From: Iamia majanohamensis
Lineage (GTDB): Bacteria; Actinomycetota; Acidimicrobiia; Acidimicrobiales; Iamiaceae
Assembly: GCF_028532485.1 (NCBI RefSeq)
Contig: NZ_CP116942.1
Location: 1,488,001 to 1,552,000 of the forward strand
Direction of reading: 5' to 3'
Length of the DNA stretch: 64,000 bases
Below the pieces are notes generated by a model that saw only the letters and a list, made by a program, of their open reading frames with translations, did no database searches and had not been told where the DNA came from. This document shows, one piece after another, positions 7,111 to 15,660 of this stretch. Every line of letters begins with the position of its first letter. Position 1 is the stretch's first letter. Made by a program: the position numbers and the translations under genes.

Positions 7111-7248
7111 AGCGGGCCGCGACGCTAGTGCTCCCCCGCCGGAGGGGACCGGTCACCGCCCCGCCGCCCCCGGCCCGGCCGTCGGACCGCCCTGCGACCA
7201 GGGCCGCGGCGGCGCGGAACCGCCTGGGGCGGTGGCAGACGGTGCCGG

Positions 7249-7254
7249 TAGCCT
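7249..7254 (+). promoter_or_regulatory. -10 box TAGCCT before the ABC exporter leader ORF
   Basis: A TANNNT-type -10 ends 8 nt before a GTG at 7263 that opens a 15-codon reading frame. No good -35 is visible. Its position predicts transcription starting within one or two bases of that GTG. Confidence 0.45.
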
Positions 7255-7262
7255 CCTGACCC

Positions 7263-7310
7263 GTGGGTCAGGATCGGAGCGTCGCCACCGGCACGCCCGG
7301 CGCCGCGTGA
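7263..7310 (+). CDS. Putative 15-residue leader peptide upstream of the ABC exporter
   Basis: GTG opens a 15-codon frame (VGQDRSVATGTPGAA) whose TGA overlaps the GTG of the exporter gene in a GTGA junction. The placement, directly after a -10 box, suggests leaderless translation of the short frame and coupling into the ABC gene, which itself has no evident Shine-Dalgarno. The peptide has no recognised family. It may be just a translated leader, and a chance frame is possible. Confidence 0.35.
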   Translation: MGQDRSVATGTPGAA

Positions 7311-9181
7311 CGGCGCCGGTCGCCGCGGCGCGCCCGCAGGACGCCTCCTCGGCCGCGTCCTCCCTCACCACCGTCGGCGACGGGTGGCACCTGCTGCGGG
7401 CCGAGCTGTGGCGGCGCAAGGTGGGCCTGGGCGCCGGCGTGCTCGCCGGCCTGGTCTGGACCGGGGGGCGGGTCAGCATCCCGACGCTGGTGCAGCGGGC
7501 CATCGACCAGGGCATCGACGTGGGCGACGAGGCCGCCGTCGTCCGGTACTCGATCCTCATCGGCCTGGTCGCGACCCTCACCGCCCTCACCACCGGCCTG
7601 CGCCGCTACCTCGCCTTCCGCGAGGCCCGCCACGCCGAGGCCTCGCTCCGCGACCGCCTCTTCGCCCACCTGGTGCGCCTCTCGTTCCCGTTCCACGACC
7701 GCAGCCCCACCGGGCAGCTGCTGAGCCGGGCCAACCTCGACCTCCAGCAGGTCCAGAACCTCGTCGTGCTGGTGCCGCTCACCCTGGCCAACGTCCTCAC
7801 CGTCGCCGCGACCGCGGTGATCCTGGCCCGCATCGACCTGGGGCTGACCGTCCTCGCCCTCGGCGTCCTGCCGTTCGTGGTGGTGGTGACCCGCCGGTTC
7901 AGCACCCGGCTGTTCCCCACCATGATGCGGGTCCAGCAGGAGTCGGCCGAGCTGGCCGGCGTGGTCGAGGAGTCCGTCGCCGGGGTGCGGGTGGTCAAGG
8001 GCTTCGGCGCCGAGCGGGTGCAGGCGGCCCGCCTGGCCCTCGAGGCCGACGACCTCTACGGCGCCTCCATGGACGCCGCCCGGGTCCGGTCCCGCAACGT
8101 CCCCTGGCTCGAGCTGCTGCCCAACGTGGGGCTCATCGTGGTCCTCGCCTACGGGGGCCACCTGGTCATCGACGGCGGCCTGACCATCGGCGAGCTGGTG
8201 GCGTTCAACGCCTACGTCGCCCTGCTCGTGACCCCGCTGCGGATGCTCGGCTTCATCGTGGCCGTGGCCCAGCGGGCCATGGCCGCGGCCCAGCGGGTCG
8301 ACGCCCTCATGGCCACCGAGGTCGAGGTGGCCGAGTCCGACGACCCCACCCCCCTCCCGGGCGACGGCGAGCTCGGCCGGGTGCGCTTCCGCGACGTCGG
8401 CTTCGGCTACGTCGACGGCGCCCCGGTGCTCGACGGCTTCGACCTCGAGATCCCGCCGGGGCAGTCCGTCGCCGTGGTGGGCGCGACCGGCAGCGGCAAG
8501 TCGACCGTCGCCCGCCTGCTGTGCCGCTTCTACGACGTGGAGCGCGGCGCGGTGGCCCTCGACGGCGTCGACGTCCGCCACCTCACCCTGGCCGACCTGC
8601 GCCAGGCCGTGGGCCTGGTGTTCGAGGACACCTTCCTCTTCAGCGACACCCTCGCCGGCAACATCGCCTTCTCCCACCCGGACGCGCCCCCGGAGGACAT
8701 CGAGCGGGCCGCCCGCCTGGCCGGTGCCCACGAGTTCATCTCCGGGCTGCCCGAGGGCTACGCCACGGTGGTGGGGGAGCGGGGCTACTCGCTCTCCGGC
8801 GGCCAGCGCCAGCGCGTGGCCATCGCCCGGGCGATCCTCGCCGACCCCCGCGTGCTCGTGCTCGACGACGCCACCAGCGCCGTCGACCCCACCAAGGAGC
8901 ACGAGATCCGGGGCGCGCTGGGCGAGGTCATGCGCGGCCGCACCACCATCGTCATCGCCCACCGCCCGGCCACCATCGCCCTGGCCGAGCGGGTCGTCCT
9001 CGTCGACGGGGGCCGGGTCGTGGCCGACGGGACCCACGAGGGCCTGCTGCGCTCCGACGCCCGCTACCGGGAGGTGCTGGCGACCGTCGCCGCCGAGGCC
9101 GCGCGGGCCGAGGCGGCCGCCGAGGACGCGGAGGACGAGGCCGACGACGGGTCGCTGCCGATCGGGGGTGGGGGCTCGTGA
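7307..9181 (+). CDS. ABC exporter half-transporter, degenerate-site subunit
   Basis: A 624-residue half-transporter with about six membrane helices (roughly 45-330) followed by a nucleotide-binding domain. Walker A is GATGSGKS at 392-399, the signature LSGGQ at 496-500, and Walker B ends LDD with Asp521 where the catalytic Glu is expected. The Q-loop reads VFED in place of the usual Gln. These substitutions are typical of the impaired subunit of heterodimeric ABC exporters. The GTG at 7307 is preferred because the upstream extension overlaps the divergent acyltransferase gene. It overlaps the next gene by 1 nt (TGATG), so the two are translated together. The substrate is unknown. Confidence 0.85.
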   Translation: MTAPVAAARPQDASSAASSLTTVGDGWHLLRAELWRRKVGLGAGVLAGLVWTGGRVSIPTLVQRAIDQGIDVGDEAAVVRYSILIGLVATLTALTTGLRRYLAFREARHAEASLRDRLFAHLVRLSFPFHDRSPTGQLLSRANLDLQQVQNLVVLVPLTLANVLTVAATAVILARIDLGLTVLALGVLPFVVVVTRRFSTRLFPTMMRVQQESAELAGVVEESVAGVRVVKGFGAERVQAARLALEADDLYGASMDAARVRSRNVPWLELLPNVGLIVVLAYGGHLVIDGGLTIGELVAFNAYVALLVTPLRMLGFIVAVAQRAMAAAQRVDALMATEVEVAESDDPTPLPGDGELGRVRFRDVGFGYVDGAPVLDGFDLEIPPGQSVAVVGATGSGKSTVARLLCRFYDVERGAVALDGVDVRHLTLADLRQAVGLVFEDTFLFSDTLAGNIAFSHPDAPPEDIERAARLAGAHEFISGLPEGYATVVGERGYSLSGGQRQRVAIARAILADPRVLVLDDATSAVDPTKEHEIRGALGEVMRGRTTIVIAHRPATIALAERVVLVDGGRVVADGTHEGLLRSDARYREVLATVAAEAARAEAAAEDAEDEADDGSLPIGGGGS

Positions 9182-10971
9182 TGCCCGGCGCCGCGGTCAC
9201 CGAGGAGGACCGCCTCGACGCCAAGGCCGCCGGCCAGGTGATGCGCCGGGCGGCCCGCACCATGGGGCCCTACCGGGCCCGGCTCTGGCTCGCCCTCGGC
9301 CTGCTCGTCACCTTCACCCTCTGCACCATCGCCGGGCCCTACCTCGTCCGGTACGGCATCGACCACGGCATCCGGGACGGCGACGGCGGCGCCCTCGACC
9401 TGGCCGTCGGGGCCTACGTCGCCGTGGCCATGGTCGGGTTCTTCGTCAACCGGGCCCAGATCGTGGTCATCTCCCAGGTGGGGGAGGGCTTCCTGCGCGA
9501 CATGCGCAACCGGGTCTTCGACCACCTCATGCGCCTGTCGATGCCCTTCTACGACCGCGAGAAGGCCGGCGTGGTGGTGTCCCGGATGACCTCCGACATC
9601 GACTCGATGCAGGAGCTGGTGCAGCAGGGGCTGCTGCAGTTCGTGTCCAGCATCCTGCTGATCGTCCTCACCCTCGTGCTGCTGGCCCTCACCTCGTGGG
9701 AGCTGCTGCTCGTCGTCGCCATCCCGATGCCCTTCGTGATCCTGGCCAGCATCCGGTTCCAGCGCGACTCCAACCAGGCCTACCTCACCGTGCGCGACCG
9801 CATCGGCCTCATGCTCTCGCACCTCCAGGAGGGGCTGAGCGGCGTCCGGGTCATCCAGGCCTACGGCCGGGAGACGGTCGAGACCGACCGCTTCGCCCAC
9901 CGGAACAAGACGCTCTACCGGGCCCACATGCGGTCGGTCTGGATCCAGGCCTGGTACCTGCCGGTGATCGAGCTGGCCGGCACCGGGGCCACCGCGCTCG
10001 TGGTGTTCGTGGGCGGTCGCCTCGTCATCGAGGACAGCCTCACCGTCGGCACCGTGGCCCTCTTCGTGCTGTCGCTGTCGAACCTCTTCGACCCCGTCCA
10101 GCAGCTCTCCCAGCTGTTCAACCAGGTGCAGTCCGGCGGGGCCGGGCTGAAGAAGCTCTACGAGCTGCTCGACACCGACGTCGACGTGCCCGAGGCACCC
10201 GACGCCGTGGCCCTGCCCGCGGCCGGGGCCATCGCCGTCGCCGGCGTGGGCTTCGCCTACCGCCCCGACCTCGACCCCGTGCTGCGCGACGTCGACCTCA
10301 CCGTCGCCACGGGGGAGCGCCTGGCCCTGGTCGGCCCGACCGGGGCCGGGAAGTCGACGCTGGCCAAGCTGGTGGCCCGCTACTACGACCCCACCGACGG
10401 CACCGTCTCCTTCGGCGGCGTCGACCTCCGCCGGGCCACCTCGGACTCGCTCCGGCAGCGCATCGCGGTGGTGCCCCAGGAGGGGTTCCTCTTCAACGGC
10501 ACGATCCGCGACAACGTGCGGGTGGCCCGGGCCGAGGCCAGCGACGAGGAGGTCGAGGCCGCCCTCGACGCCCTCGGGGTGCGCGACCGCTTCGAGGCCC
10601 TGCCCGAGGGGCTGGAGACCGAGGTGCGCGAGCGGGGCAGCCGCCTGTCGGCCGGGGAGAAGCAGCTGGTGTCGATGGCCCGCGCCGCCCTGGCCGACCC
10701 CACCGTGCTGGTCCTCGACGAGGCCACCTCCAGCCTCGACCCCGGCACCGAGGCGGTGGTGGAGGACGCGGTCGAGCGGCTCATGGAGGGCCGCACCACC
10801 ATCGTCATCGCCCACCGCCTGTCCACCGCGGCCCGGGCCGACCGCGTGGGCGTCGTCGACGACGGCCGCCTCGTCGAGCTGGGCTCCCACGACGAGCTCC
10901 TCGCCCTCGAGGGCGGCCGCTACCGGGCCCTCTACGCGGCCTGGACCGCCGGCCTGGCCGCCACCGCCTGA
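9181..10971 (+). CDS. ABC exporter half-transporter, catalytic-site subunit
   Basis: A 596-residue partner of the preceding gene with the same layout of a six-helix membrane domain and an NBD. Walker A is GPTGAGKS (385-392), the Q-loop is VVPQEGFLFNG with Gln intact, and Walker B ends LDE with catalytic Glu514. The signature motif is LSAGE (489-493) rather than LSGGQ. Because composite sites pair one subunit's Walker motifs with the other's signature, the heterodimer would have one consensus site (this Walker A/B with LSGGQ of the partner) and one degenerate site. The substrate (lipid, peptide or drug) cannot be told. Confidence 0.88.
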   Translation: MPGAAVTEEDRLDAKAAGQVMRRAARTMGPYRARLWLALGLLVTFTLCTIAGPYLVRYGIDHGIRDGDGGALDLAVGAYVAVAMVGFFVNRAQIVVISQVGEGFLRDMRNRVFDHLMRLSMPFYDREKAGVVVSRMTSDIDSMQELVQQGLLQFVSSILLIVLTLVLLALTSWELLLVVAIPMPFVILASIRFQRDSNQAYLTVRDRIGLMLSHLQEGLSGVRVIQAYGRETVETDRFAHRNKTLYRAHMRSVWIQAWYLPVIELAGTGATALVVFVGGRLVIEDSLTVGTVALFVLSLSNLFDPVQQLSQLFNQVQSGGAGLKKLYELLDTDVDVPEAPDAVALPAAGAIAVAGVGFAYRPDLDPVLRDVDLTVATGERLALVGPTGAGKSTLAKLVARYYDPTDGTVSFGGVDLRRATSDSLRQRIAVVPQEGFLFNGTIRDNVRVARAEASDEEVEAALDALGVRDRFEALPEGLETEVRERGSRLSAGEKQLVSMARAALADPTVLVLDEATSSLDPGTEAVVEDAVERLMEGRTTIVIAHRLSTAARADRVGVVDDGRLVELGSHDELLALEGGRYRALYAAWTAGLAATA

Positions 10972-11042: not shown

Positions 11043-12116
11043 TCAGGCGCGGCGGAGGGTGGCGTGGAGGTGGTGGGTGAGGGGCTCGCCGACCGCGGCC
11101 ATGGCCAGGTCGTAGGTGAGGACGTCGCCCTCGACGCGGTAGGTGCGCTCGGTGGCGGTCACCTCCTTGGCCGTCGGGGTCCCGACGACGGTCTCGGACA
11201 CCAGCGCGACCTCGACCCCGGTGGCGCCCACCTCGACCAGGCCTGCGCACGTCTCCGCCACGCCCGGCGCGCCGGCCACGACCAGCTCCACCGCGCCGTC
11301 GCCGACCCGGCGCAGGAAGCCGCTCTCGGCGTGGAGCCCCCGCCCGTCGTCGCTCGCGGTGGTGGTCGAGCGGTAGGCGAGCACCGGCTTGCCCGCGACG
11401 GGGACGAGCTCGATGCGCTCGTGGTAGGAGAAGCCGTCGATGGTGGGGTAGTGGCCCTGCCCCGAGCCGGTCCACCTGCCGGCCAGGGGCGCCAGCTCGC
11501 GGTGGACGGCGGGGTCGGGTGCCGGAGCCGCGGTGCCGCCCTCCGGTGACGGGCCGCCGCCGGCCGCGGTCGTCGCCCCGTCCGCGCCGGCCGTCGTGCC
11601 CCCGGTGGGGTCGGCGGGCTCGCCGGCGAGGAGGTGGGCCCAGCGGGCGTCGCGCTGGCCCGGCGCCCGGGGCAGCAGCCGCACGAGGGGCTCGCCCCAG
11701 CCGGCCATGTCCTCCAGGGTGGCCTCCACCTCGCCGGCGTCGGCGAAGGGGTGGATGCGCTCGGTGCGCACCTTCAGCTCCTGGGGCGTCTGCGGCCCCC
11801 GGAGGAGCAGGACGGTGAGCACCGCCCGCTGCGGGTCGTCGACGGTGAGGGCGTCCTGGGCCACCTGGCGGTACTTGACGACCCGGCTGCCGGTGGTGGG
11901 CAGCACCTTGCGCACCAGGTGCTGGGCCTTGAGGCGGTCGAGGGCGGCCTCGACCTGGTGCTCGGAGAGGTCGGTGACCGGGTCGCGGCTCGACGACTGG
12001 TTGCACGCGGTGACCAGGCCGTTGAGGGTCATGGGGTAGGTGGCGGGCACGGTGCGCTCCTTCTCCAGGAGGCTGCCGAGCACCCGCACCTCCGCCGGGG
12101 AGAGCACCAGGTCCAC
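11043..12116 (-). CDS. YceH (DUF480) - nitrobindin fusion protein
   Basis: The 357-residue product joins two families. Residues about 1-155 are a YceH/DUF480 tandem winged-helix unit, recognisable from LSPAEVRVLGSLLEKE and YPMTLNGLVTACNQ. After an Ala/Gly/Thr/Pro linker (about 160-203), residues 205-357 are a nitrobindin-like beta-barrel with LAGRWTGSGQGHYPTI, GLHAESGFLRR, TAKEVT and a C-terminal THHLHATLRR, where a His (probably 349) corresponds to the heme ligand. Nitrobindins bind heme b and react with NO or peroxynitrite; YceH function is unknown. The fusion suggests a heme- or redox-sensing regulator, which is inference. The start is GTG. Confidence 0.82.
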   Translation of the reverse strand: MDLVLSPAEVRVLGSLLEKERTVPATYPMTLNGLVTACNQSSSRDPVTDLSEHQVEAALDRLKAQHLVRKVLPTTGSRVVKYRQVAQDALTVDDPQRAVLTVLLLRGPQTPQELKVRTERIHPFADAGEVEATLEDMAGWGEPLVRLLPRAPGQRDARWAHLLAGEPADPTGGTTAGADGATTAAGGGPSPEGGTAAPAPDPAVHRELAPLAGRWTGSGQGHYPTIDGFSYHERIELVPVAGKPVLAYRSTTTASDDGRGLHAESGFLRRVGDGAVELVVAGAPGVAETCAGLVEVGATGVEVALVSETVVGTPTAKEVTATERTYRVEGDVLTYDLAMAAVGEPLTHHLHATLRRA

Positions 12117-12181
12117 GCCGGCACCCTACGGCGGGCTCCTGGCGGCGCGCTCACATCGGGGCGGCCCCCTCCGATGGGCCG

Positions 12182-13405
12182 GTGATGACACGGCGCCTCC
12201 CCCTCCGCGTCTCCGGTGCGCTCGTCGCCCTGGTGACCCTTCTCTCCCTCGTCGCCTGCACGCCCGACGAGGCGACCTTCCGGGGCCACGGCTACGGCCA
12301 CGGCCGGGGGATGAGCCAGTGGGGCGCCCTCGGCTACGCCGTCGACCACGGCTGGAGCGGCACCCAGATCCTGGACCACTACTACCGGGGCACCACCACC
12401 TGGGAGGTGGCCCCGTCCACCCAGCGGGTGTACCTGATGGGCTCCGACGGCCAGGAGCTGGTGGTGACCCAGGACCAGGGCCGCCTGCGGGTCGACGGCC
12501 ACGGCGGCGAGGTCGGCTCGGTCCGGGTCCTGCGCCTGTCGGCCACCCACTACCGGCTCTACCGCGGCGCCGGGGGCTGCACCGGGCCGTGGACCTTCGT
12601 GGCCGACGTGCCCGCCGACGACGTGGAGGTGCGCTCGGCGGTGGACGCGGGCGAGGACCCCTCGCTCATGCTCCAGCGCTGCACGACGGGGGGCACCCGC
12701 TACTACCGGGGGTCGCTGCGGCTGGTCCGGGGCCGGGGCTCGGTCGTCACCGTGAACCAGGTCGGCACCGAGGACATGGTCCGGGGGATCGTGCCCCGCG
12801 AGGTCTCGCCCTCGTGGGCCGACGCCGGGGGCGGCAAGGGCCTCAACGCGGTGCGGGCCCAGGCCCTCGCCGCCCGCTCCTACGCCCTCGCCGGCGACAC
12901 CCGGTGGGCGCCCTACGCCACCACCTGCGACTCGACGTACTGCCAGGCCTACGAGGGCTACGGCTTCCGCCCCACGGGCTCGGGTGCCATCCAGATGAAC
13001 GAGGACCGCCGCACCGACCGGGCCGTGCGCGACACCACCGACCAGGTCCGGGTGTTCGCCGACGGGCGCATCGCGGCCACCGAGTTCAGCTCGTCGTCGG
13101 GCGGGTGGACCAAGGCCGGGGCCTTCCCCGCCGTCGTCGACGAGGGCGACGACATCGCCGCCAACCCGCACCACGACTGGGCCGTGACCCTCACCCGGGC
13201 CCAGATCGAGACGGCCTTCGACCGGTGGGCCGGGCGTGACCTGGGCACGTGGAACGGCTTCGACCAGTATGTGCGGGACGGCCGCGGCGACATGGGGGGA
13301 CGGGTCGTGAGGATGACGGTCCGCTTCTCCGGCGGCGACATCACGGTCAGCGGCGACCAGGTGCGCTCCATCCTCGGCCTCCGCTCCGACTGGTTCACCG
13401 CATGA
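12182..13405 (+). CDS. SpoIID/LytB-domain lipoprotein
   Basis: A 407-residue exported protein. The N-terminus has Arg residues, a hydrophobic core and the lipobox LVAC (Cys26), so membrane anchoring by lipid is likely. The mature part begins with FRGHGYGHGRGMSQWGA, the conserved start of the SpoIID/LytB domain, and contains GIVPREVSPSWA and ALAARSYAL, all typical. SpoIID proteins are peptidoglycan lytic enzymes or amidase enhancers. Here it is a vegetative envelope protein, since nothing else suggests sporulation. The start may be GTG 12182 or the ATG one codon later (12185). The next gene, 59 nt downstream, is also exported. Confidence 0.85.
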   Translation: MMTRRLPLRVSGALVALVTLLSLVACTPDEATFRGHGYGHGRGMSQWGALGYAVDHGWSGTQILDHYYRGTTTWEVAPSTQRVYLMGSDGQELVVTQDQGRLRVDGHGGEVGSVRVLRLSATHYRLYRGAGGCTGPWTFVADVPADDVEVRSAVDAGEDPSLMLQRCTTGGTRYYRGSLRLVRGRGSVVTVNQVGTEDMVRGIVPREVSPSWADAGGGKGLNAVRAQALAARSYALAGDTRWAPYATTCDSTYCQAYEGYGFRPTGSGAIQMNEDRRTDRAVRDTTDQVRVFADGRIAATEFSSSSGGWTKAGAFPAVVDEGDDIAANPHHDWAVTLTRAQIETAFDRWAGRDLGTWNGFDQYVRDGRGDMGGRVVRMTVRFSGGDITVSGDQVRSILGLRSDWFTA

Positions 13406-13464: not shown

Positions 13465-15660
13465 GTGCCCACCGCTCGCCTGCCCCGTCCCCCCGCCGCC
13501 CGGACGACCGTCCGGGCCCTGGTCGCGCTGGTCCTCGCCGTCGTGCTCGCCGCCGGCGTGGTCCCCGGCCCCGGGCGCTCGCTCGCGCCCGAGCCGGCCG
13601 GCGCCCAGACGACCCTGCGGGGCATCCGCAACGTGGACGTGCGGCTCGACACCCTGACGGTCCCGACCGGGTCCTCGGAGTACAAGTCCTCGCCCGCCCT
13701 GGCCGACCTCGACGGCGACGACCGGCCCGAGGTGGTGGTCGCCGCCCCCAACGGCACCGTCACCGCCTTCCGCGTGGCCGACGGGGGCGTGCGGTGGCGC
13801 CGCTCCCTGGGCCGGACCGCCATCCAGGCCTCCCCGGTCGTCACCGACGTCGACAACGACGGGCGGGTGGACGTGGTGGTCGCGACCATGGACGGTCGGG
13901 TCCTGCTCCTCGACGGCCAGAGCGGCGGGGTGAAGCGGACCTTCCGCCAGGGCGCGCCCCTCTTCTGCCCGGCGGGGGTCGACTGCCGGCCCGACGGCTT
14001 CTACGCCACCCCCGTGGTGGCCGACGTCAACGGCGACGGCCGCAAGGACATCGTCGCCCCCAGCTACGACCACACCGTCTACGCGTGGAGCTGGGGCGGC
14101 ACCCTCCTGTGGCGCTCGTACCTCTACGACACCCTGTGGTCCTCGCCCGCCGCCGTCGACCTCGACAAGAACGGGACCACCGAGATCGTCCTCGGCGGCG
14201 ACATCTACGCCGGCAACCCGCTGGGGCTGCCCCAGGGCGGTCTCCTCTGGGTGCTGAACGGGCGCAACGGCGCCCGCTTCCCCGGCTACCCGCGCTCCCT
14301 GCCGGGCCAGACCATCTGGTCGTCGCCGGCCATCGCCGACATCGACGGCGACACCCGCCCCGACGTCGTGGTGGGCACGGGCACCAACGGCCCCTTCGGC
14401 GACGGCGCCGCGGCGCGCCGGCTCTGGGGCTTCACCCTGGCCGACCGGCGCGACCTGCCCGGCTGGCCGGTCAGCATGCCCGGGCGGGTGGTGAACCAGC
14501 CCGCGGTGGGCGACATCGACAACGACGGCCGTCCCGAGGTGGTGGCCGGGACCGAGGGGGGCTACGTCGTGGCCCTGGAGCACGACGGGGCCCGGAAGTG
14601 GGCCACGTGCAACTACTCCTCGACCTCCCAGTGCCCGGGCTCGCCCAACCTGCCCACCCACGGAGGGGTGGCCATCGCCGACGTCGACGACGACGGCAAC
14701 CAGGAGGTCATCTCCGCCCTGTCGCCCCGGCTGCGGGTGTACCGGGGCTACGACCGCCAGCTCGAGGCCGACCACCTCCTCACCGACTACGGCACCCTCG
14801 GTCCCACCTCGGTGGCGGCCATCGGGGAGATCAACGGCTCGACCGTGATCGCCCAGTCGTACTTCTACCGGGTGGGCGGCCACGGCGGACAGGCCCGCGC
14901 CGGCGACCTGGTGCGGACGACCCTGCTCACGACCGACCGGCCCCTCTGCGCCGAGGACTGGCCCGGGTTCAAGCGCGGCCCGGCCCGCGACTCGTTGGTG
15001 CCGCCCCGCCCGCCGTGGAACCCGTTCCCGTGCGCGCGGCCCTTCGTGGCCCAGCAGTACCGCGACCTGCTCGGCCGCGAGCTCGACACCGCCGGGGCCA
15101 CCTTCTGGGCCGGGCGGCTGCGCACCACGTGGTCGGGGGCCCGGGTGGTGGCCGGGTTCCTGAACAGCGGCGAGTTCGGCGTCGTCGCCGCGCCGGTCAG
15201 CCGCCTCCACCTGGGGCTGAAGGGCGGTCCGCCGATCGACGGGGCCGAGGTCCGTGACCAGATGCAACGCCTCCGCGACGGCGAGTCGCTGGCATCCATC
15301 GCCGAGGGGATCCTGGCGTCGGGCCCGTGGGCCCGGGAGACCGACGACCAGCTGGTGACCCGCGCCTACTTCACCCTGCTGCGCCGCGCCGCGACCGCGT
15401 CCGAGCGGTCCGCGGCCCTCGCCGCCATCACGGCCCGGGGCCGGGCCGCCTGGTACGCGGACCTGTCCCAGACCACCGAGGCCCGCACCAAGACCGACGA
15501 CCGGGTGCAGGTCATCATGATCTACGTCGGGCTCCTGGCCCGGGGCCCGGACCAGGGGGGCTGGGACTACTGGGCGCCGCGGGCCGAGACCGGCACCCCG
15601 GTGCAGCGGCTCATCTCCCTGTTCCTCAACTCCGGGGAGTACAGGAACCGGGTCCTCTGA
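13465..15660 (+). CDS. Exported FG-GAP/VCBS repeat protein with C-terminal DUF4214
   Basis: A 731-residue secreted protein. A signal peptide (hydrophobic about 17-35, Ala-rich cleavage near AGA-QTT) is followed by at least seven calcium-loop repeats of the DxDxDG type, including ADLDGDDRPEVVV, TDVDNDGRVDVVV, ADVNGDGRKDIVA, ADIDGDTRPDVVV and GDIDNDGRPEVVA. These should form a seven-bladed propeller. From about residue 525 onward are two DUF4214-like helical modules (FVAQQYRDLLGRELDTAG and YVGLLARGPDQGGWDYW). Both families are associated with surface adhesion and matrix proteins; the ligand is unknown. A strong hairpin follows the stop codon. The start is GTG. Confidence 0.85.
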   Translation: MPTARLPRPPAARTTVRALVALVLAVVLAAGVVPGPGRSLAPEPAGAQTTLRGIRNVDVRLDTLTVPTGSSEYKSSPALADLDGDDRPEVVVAAPNGTVTAFRVADGGVRWRRSLGRTAIQASPVVTDVDNDGRVDVVVATMDGRVLLLDGQSGGVKRTFRQGAPLFCPAGVDCRPDGFYATPVVADVNGDGRKDIVAPSYDHTVYAWSWGGTLLWRSYLYDTLWSSPAAVDLDKNGTTEIVLGGDIYAGNPLGLPQGGLLWVLNGRNGARFPGYPRSLPGQTIWSSPAIADIDGDTRPDVVVGTGTNGPFGDGAAARRLWGFTLADRRDLPGWPVSMPGRVVNQPAVGDIDNDGRPEVVAGTEGGYVVALEHDGARKWATCNYSSTSQCPGSPNLPTHGGVAIADVDDDGNQEVISALSPRLRVYRGYDRQLEADHLLTDYGTLGPTSVAAIGEINGSTVIAQSYFYRVGGHGGQARAGDLVRTTLLTTDRPLCAEDWPGFKRGPARDSLVPPRPPWNPFPCARPFVAQQYRDLLGRELDTAGATFWAGRLRTTWSGARVVAGFLNSGEFGVVAAPVSRLHLGLKGGPPIDGAEVRDQMQRLRDGESLASIAEGILASGPWARETDDQLVTRAYFTLLRRAATASERSAALAAITARGRAAWYADLSQTTEARTKTDDRVQVIMIYVGLLARGPDQGGWDYWAPRAETGTPVQRLISLFLNSGEYRNRVL

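Follow-up and report, generated by a model that had tools for sequence, protein, structure and literature searches.

Human THAP4 carries a DNA-binding(-like) domain, the THAP zinc finger, at its N terminus and a nitrobindin barrel at its C terminus, and it has been proposed to act as a sensor (passages in PMC6275384 and PMC10135655). Nitrobindins themselves have been studied closely for their chemistry, but their function is termed obscure in the opening of the PMC9599043 abstract. YceH (UPF0502) has a similarly thin record: the titles of its solved structures refer to a protein of unknown function, a passage in PMC13246756 predicts interactions with proteins tied to the negative regulation of transcription, and an excerpt of PMC8228696 includes YceH in the gene table of an Escherichia coli oxidant-resistance screen (category, other and unknown). 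We found no report of DNA binding by a YceH in open-licence PubMed Central papers, and we found no description there of a protein joining YceH to a nitrobindin or to a methyltransferase; domain databases may already list such an architecture. Here we describe a YceH-nitrobindin fusion, which places two functional questions on one molecule (i.e., heme uptake by the barrel and its effect on what YceH binds).

A YceH-nitrobindin gene in Iamia majanohamensis

The window that we analyzed is a 64,000-nucleotide stretch of the I. majanohamensis genome, which consists of one contig of 4,576,919 bases. The coding sequence of the fusion (11043..12116, reverse strand; 357 amino acids) begins with a GTG codon at 12116, and its open frame extends upstream by a further 3 codons (360 in total). 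Pfam detected a DUF480/YceH domain (PF04337) at residues 5 to 154 (11655..12104, reverse strand; 182.9 bits against a cut-off of 25; E = 5e-54; profile positions 1 to 149 of 149) and a nitrobindin domain (THAP4_heme-bd, PF08768) at residues 207 to 356 (11049..11498, reverse strand; 135 bits against a cut-off of 25; E = 3e-39; profile positions 4 to 151 of 151). Given scores so far above the cut-offs, a chance match of either half is excluded. The sequence-only reading had placed the YceH half at residues 1 to 155 and the nitrobindin half at residues 205 to 357; both assignments stand with slightly different limits, and the three motifs that it cited are present in the translation.

The genome contained one match each for PF04337 and PF08768, both in the fusion gene. 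The same joint frame was found uninterrupted in eight further genomes, giving nine carriers with I. majanohamensis. The fusion protein is therefore real, and the recurrence of one joint frame in nine genomes rules out an assembly artefact or a chance frame.

Structure prediction with AlphaFold2 (55 aligned rows; mean pLDDT, 90.9; pTM, 0.57) gave confident folds for both halves, and these matched solved YceH and nitrobindin structures. Residues 172 to 194 (11535..11603, reverse strand; pLDDT under 50) form a disordered linker. The model predicts two firm domains with no fixed mutual packing.

Residues 1 to 170 superposed on Pseudomonas syringae 3bz6 (Z, 26.8; rmsd, 1.2 Å; 165 aligned residues) and on E. 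coli YceH 5vyv chain A (Z, 26.5), at 42 to 46% identity and with a full-length domain match. In the Foldseek search, MarR-family regulators appeared far down the list (rank 44; E = 7.5e-3). By the NCBIfam YceH equivalog model PRK11239 (NF008413), the protein scored 148.4 bits, below the cut-off of 321, and by its profile matches it is classed as a member of the DUF480 family but not as a YceH equivalog. Conservation of the core was nevertheless nearly complete: of 27 columns that were at least 95% conserved in 111 YceH rows without a nitrobindin, 25 were unchanged in all nine fusions and two in eight of nine, each deviating in one fusion row. The YceH core thus appears to be constrained alike when a nitrobindin follows it.

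The nitrobindin half showed ten strands (each of at least three residues) within residues 213 to 356 of the model. Residues 198 to 357 superposed on Mycobacterium tuberculosis Rv2717c (Mt-Nb; 2fr2) with a Z of 25.9 (rmsd, 1.3 Å; 157 aligned residues) and on the barrel of human THAP4 (3ia8) with a Z of 23.8; lipid- and FABP-type barrels superposed as well, with Z values of about 11. The shared order of an N-terminal DNA-binding(-like) domain and a C-terminal nitrobindin recalls THAP4, but the window protein has the unrelated DUF480 in place of the THAP zinc finger, and Pfam detected no THAP domain in it (at E values up to 0.1, only DUF480 and THAP4_heme-bd were matched). Because the N-terminal domains are unrelated, the likeness to THAP4 covers the layout and not the whole protein. 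This suggests that the layout of a DNA-binding domain followed by a nitrobindin arose twice.

The fusion gene is a solitary one. Two ABC exporter genes (7235-9178 and 9190-10968, forward strand) lie downstream and converge on it, and upstream a SpoIID-domain protein is encoded divergently (12182-13402, forward strand). One congener (G015) has the same adjacent genes on both sides, and another (G016) has them on the SpoIID side only. The window's neighbors were absent beside the fusion in the congener G014, where the contig is short, and in the carriers outside the genus. The sequences upstream of eight fusion genes did not align (only 3 of 169 columns invariant) and showed no conserved operator. 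A near-palindrome (12154-12176; 11-nucleotide arms, 82% complementary, 1 nucleotide apart) occupies part of the spacer that separates the fusion gene from the divergent SpoIID-domain gene; it has no aligned counterpart in the congeners, and we gave it no weight as an operator. Farther along the window, an FG-GAP repeat protein (13465-15657, forward strand) has a DUF4214 stretch close to its C-terminal third.

The predicted heme site and the distal loop

At position 155 of the 2fr2 chain, Mt-Nb has the proximal heme ligand position, which aligns with His349 of the window protein (11070..11072, reverse strand). With the barrels superposing at 1.3 Å over 157 residues, a proximal His lying away from the barrel pocket, the placement that the sequence-only reading had named as a refutation, does not occur in the model. 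The contacts of the Mt-Nb porphyrin given in a passage of PMC7915275 (Ile30, Phe33, Tyr35, Met145, and Leu156) align with Ile, Phe, Tyr, Met, and Leu, respectively, provided that the chain positions of 2fr2 equal the numbers of that paper, which is the case for Leu156 and the distal His85. Two histidines (At His158, proximal, and At His76, on the distal side) are named as conserved nitrobindin positions in a passage of PMC10135655; the counterpart of At His76 is His262 (11331..11333, reverse strand). Both His349 and His262 were invariant in the nine fused and the 25 standalone rows, and a further 24 columns with a conservation of 90% or more among standalone nitrobindins were unchanged in all nine fusions. 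On this alignment evidence, the fused barrel very likely still takes heme.

The ligand side gave a different picture. Residues F245 (24 of 25 standalone rows), Q250 (25 of 25), and P283 (25 of 25) were each found in none of the nine fused rows, and one of these three sits in the distal heme loop; the standalone barrels were chosen by similarity and the fused ones form one clade, meaning that shared changes may represent one event. The loop itself, which is His85-Pro86-Ser87-Gly88 in Mt-Nb, is altered to G282-A283-P284-G285 in the window protein (11262..11273, reverse strand). Standalone rows read HPTG (18), QPSG (4), QPTG (2), or HPFG (1), and fused rows read GAPG, TASG, AGPG, TGSG, HGFG, QAPG (2), QGAG, and QGSG. 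Even within the window's genus, position 282 varied (G, T, A, and T in four rows). As judged from these alignments, the ligand side of the fused barrel is re-shaped. The ligand preference of standalone nitrobindins is thus not simply transferable to it.

Position 282 corresponds to His85, the distal residue of Mt-Nb, and human nitrobindin has Thr91 on the distal side and no distal His there (both from passages in PMC7915275). Given this human precedent, a missing distal His is compatible with NO chemistry. Human nitrobindin shows a Soret band near 406 nm. Compared with Rv2717c (2fr2 and 6r3w), the window protein has 44% identity and keeps the proximal His and the listed porphyrin contacts, whereas His85-Pro86-Ser87 is replaced by Gly282-Ala283-Pro284. 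It also falls under the 225-bit cut-off of the NCBIfam peroxynitrite isomerase equivalog model (NF045819), with 176.7 bits; two other fusions that we scored, L073 (178.1) and L023 (166.8), missed it as well.

Spread of the fusion and exchange of the YceH tail

Regarding its phylogenetic spread, which the sequence-only reading had left as a matter to check, the fusion proved to be rare, with nine distinct carriers and 52 to 68% identity to the window protein across the fused set. Both halves were matched in 7 of the 24 family genomes, including four of four of the genus, in 2 of 395 genomes of the class sample (among the matches listed, I. majanohamensis itself and G278), and in a single genome, again that of I. 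majanohamensis, of the 396 sampled from the phylum. The three samples overlap. For the class and phylum samples, scoring covered the five best candidates in each genome, and a reading of match ranges would miss a fusion that was split into two reported pieces. A scan of named genomes kept 80 loci, of which five were fused (L072 to L076). Four of these overlap carriers in the family (G014, G018, G001, and G022), and the fifth (L073) comes from a Candidatus Microthrix metagenome-assembled genome.

Against 13 standalone barrels, the fused barrels formed one clade (support, 100/99), which makes a single joining event probable. On the YceH tree, two changes of the nitrobindin label are required, with one also possible. 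Two fused loci, L007 and L023, were paired in the barrel tree (97/96) and lay apart in the YceH tree, which has many weak branches; on this pair the two trees disagree, and the fused gene may have been transferred from one lineage to another.

Genomes that have the two genes unfused carry them at distant places or on separate contigs (e.g., G366, G050, and G464). A PF08768 search of eight fusion carriers found no further match in seven and one divergent match (74.4 bits) in G018, and the fused barrel was the only canonical nitrobindin in all eight. This status means little, since 7 of 10 family genomes with a nonfused YceH also lack a canonical nitrobindin; the other three (G004, G008, and G011) have a standalone one. 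Counts of PF04337 and PF08768 in the 24 family genomes showed no clear pattern of a standalone nitrobindin being swapped for a fused one.

The nitrobindin is one of several tails that follow the YceH core. Among 120 YceH rows, which were chosen for their resemblance to the window protein, meaning that the class shares are not frequencies, tails were classified as class I SAM methyltransferase (62), short (45), nitrobindin (9), or other (4); repeats (L001, L022, L052 to L058, L072, and L074 to L077) and the short L018 were left out. Short tails, labeled as coil, are those under 130 amino acids with neither a methyltransferase nor a nitrobindin match. Some labels are to be read with care: L150 (coil) and L148 (methyltransferase) have short tails that run to the contig end, L015 is labeled as a methyltransferase and Pfam detects no such domain in it, and L081 (other), possibly frame-shifted, nests within the clade of methyltransferase rows.

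Of the 45 short tails, 39 contained an unbroken run of three or more heptads with hydrophobic residues at a and d (0.1 expected from shuffles), as against none of the nine nitrobindin and none of the 62 methyltransferase rows, for which heptads were scored over the first 60 tail residues only. These counts indicate that, in these rows, the barrel and the methyltransferase occupy the usual place of the coiled coil. It is here that the window protein, with its nitrobindin barrel, departs from short-tailed YceH proteins.

YceH-methyltransferase proteins share the YceH core and have a foreign domain after it, but in them a class I SAM methyltransferase replaces the barrel. They were frequent among the fetched Actinomycetota loci (Nocardioides, Kribbella, Kineosporia, Micropruina, Aquihabitans, and kin), with examples at L077:6004-7218 and L078:5989-7188 and others among L009 to L014 and L078 to L148. 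NCBI assigns the genus Aquihabitans to Iamiaceae (Acidimicrobiia). Pfam matched Methyltransf_25 in the tails of L009 and L011 and gave weaker methyltransferase matches, below the cut-offs, in L046; no specific methyltransferase name was obtained above the NCBIfam cut-offs for L077 and L078. In L049:1489-2742, the domain fused to YceH is of the PEP_mutase type (E = 1.2e-60). The long C-terminal tails of L051:1507-2859 and L015:1180-2091 matched no Pfam family; the latter does score against the tail of L009, a methyltransferase, and is perhaps what remains of a degraded one. In 5 of the 80 loci (L078, L082, L084, L115, and L116), the opposite strand has a nitrobindin-like frame at a distance of about 3 kb from the gene for the YceH-methyltransferase protein. 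We did not count this as support for any reading, as the loci are closely related and other genes surround the frame in L078 and L116.

Judged by domain matches and heptad patterns, the YceH tail is exchanged among a short coiled coil, a methyltransferase, a nitrobindin, and a PEP mutase. Both domains of the window protein are known; what appears to be new is the YceH tail as a swap site. These exchanges open other routes to the study of YceH, most notably through the frequent methyltransferase form of Nocardioides and its relatives.

Possible functions of the fused protein

We tentatively favor, at somewhat less than even confidence, a one-component regulator responsive to heme or reactive nitrogen species, akin to what has been proposed for THAP4 in humans. 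The YceH half would be a winged-helix DNA-binding module, probably dimeric, and the barrel would bind ferric heme at His349. NO, peroxynitrite, or the heme supply would alter the state of the barrel, and this change would pass through the flexible linker to what the YceH half binds. The fused protein may also still scavenge reactive nitrogen, since no other canonical nitrobindin was found in the eight carriers searched.

Several results argue for such a regulator. Both domains are complete, score above the curated cut-offs, and have folds that match the solved structures. The YceH core, His349, and His262 are conserved, and the joint gene has been kept in nine genomes despite differing neighbors outside the genus. 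The single fused clade, the exchange of YceH tails, the distant MarR matches, and the layout and sensor proposal of THAP4 point the same way. The reading is weakened by the lack of a neighbor common outside the genus, of a conserved operator, and of any report found of DNA binding by a YceH, and likewise by the altered distal loop and the missed NF045819 cut-off. The sequence-only reading had arrived at a regulator too; its domain assignments are borne out by sequence and predicted fold, whereas gene surroundings, upstream regions, and the distal loop tell against its regulatory part in the simplest form.

A broader proposal, which we regard as possible but doubtful, is that YceH serves as a general winged-helix platform and that its C-terminal tail is swapped from one lineage to the next, the nitrobindin version being a bacterial analogue of THAP4 (i.e., a heme-based, NO- or peroxynitrite-responsive DNA-binding protein with a re-shaped distal pocket). 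If true, this would give YceH and the nitrobindins a first role in gene control that can be tested.

Because the methyltransferase and PEP mutase tails are enzyme folds, tethering fits the tail exchange as well as sensing does. The barrel could keep NO binding and the conversion of peroxynitrite to nitrate, with YceH merely placing it on DNA or on a partner protein in need of protection and heme state regulating nothing. The kept heme-ligand His and the status of the fused barrel as the sole canonical nitrobindin in the eight searched carriers agree with this, but the changed distal loop, the loss of F245, Q250, and P283 from every fused row, and the score under the peroxynitrite isomerase equivalog cut-off suggest chemistry that is not the ordinary one. 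We consider a tethered scavenger unlikely.

These same distal-side changes, common to the fused clade, raise the question of whether the barrel has left the NO task to become a plain sensor or store of heme, to bind another hydrophobic ligand, or to take over from the coiled coil, mainly as a link between YceH subunits. The last idea draws on the position of the barrel, which sits where most short tails have their heptads and the nitrobindin linkers have none, and the superposition of lipid- and FABP-type barrels is in line with another ligand. But the 24 conserved columns that accompany His349 and His262 unchanged through all fusions point to a kept heme site, and human nitrobindin likewise does without a distal His at the equivalent place (Thr91). 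A departure from NO chemistry therefore seems improbable to us.

A neutral fusion of two housekeeping proteins, co-translated by chance and acting independently, would suit the flexible linker, the lack of predicted packing (pTM, 0.57), and the lack of common neighbors or an operator, but it is very improbable given that the joint frame has been kept in nine genomes at 52 to 68% identity in changed surroundings and that the fused barrels have a residue signature of their own.
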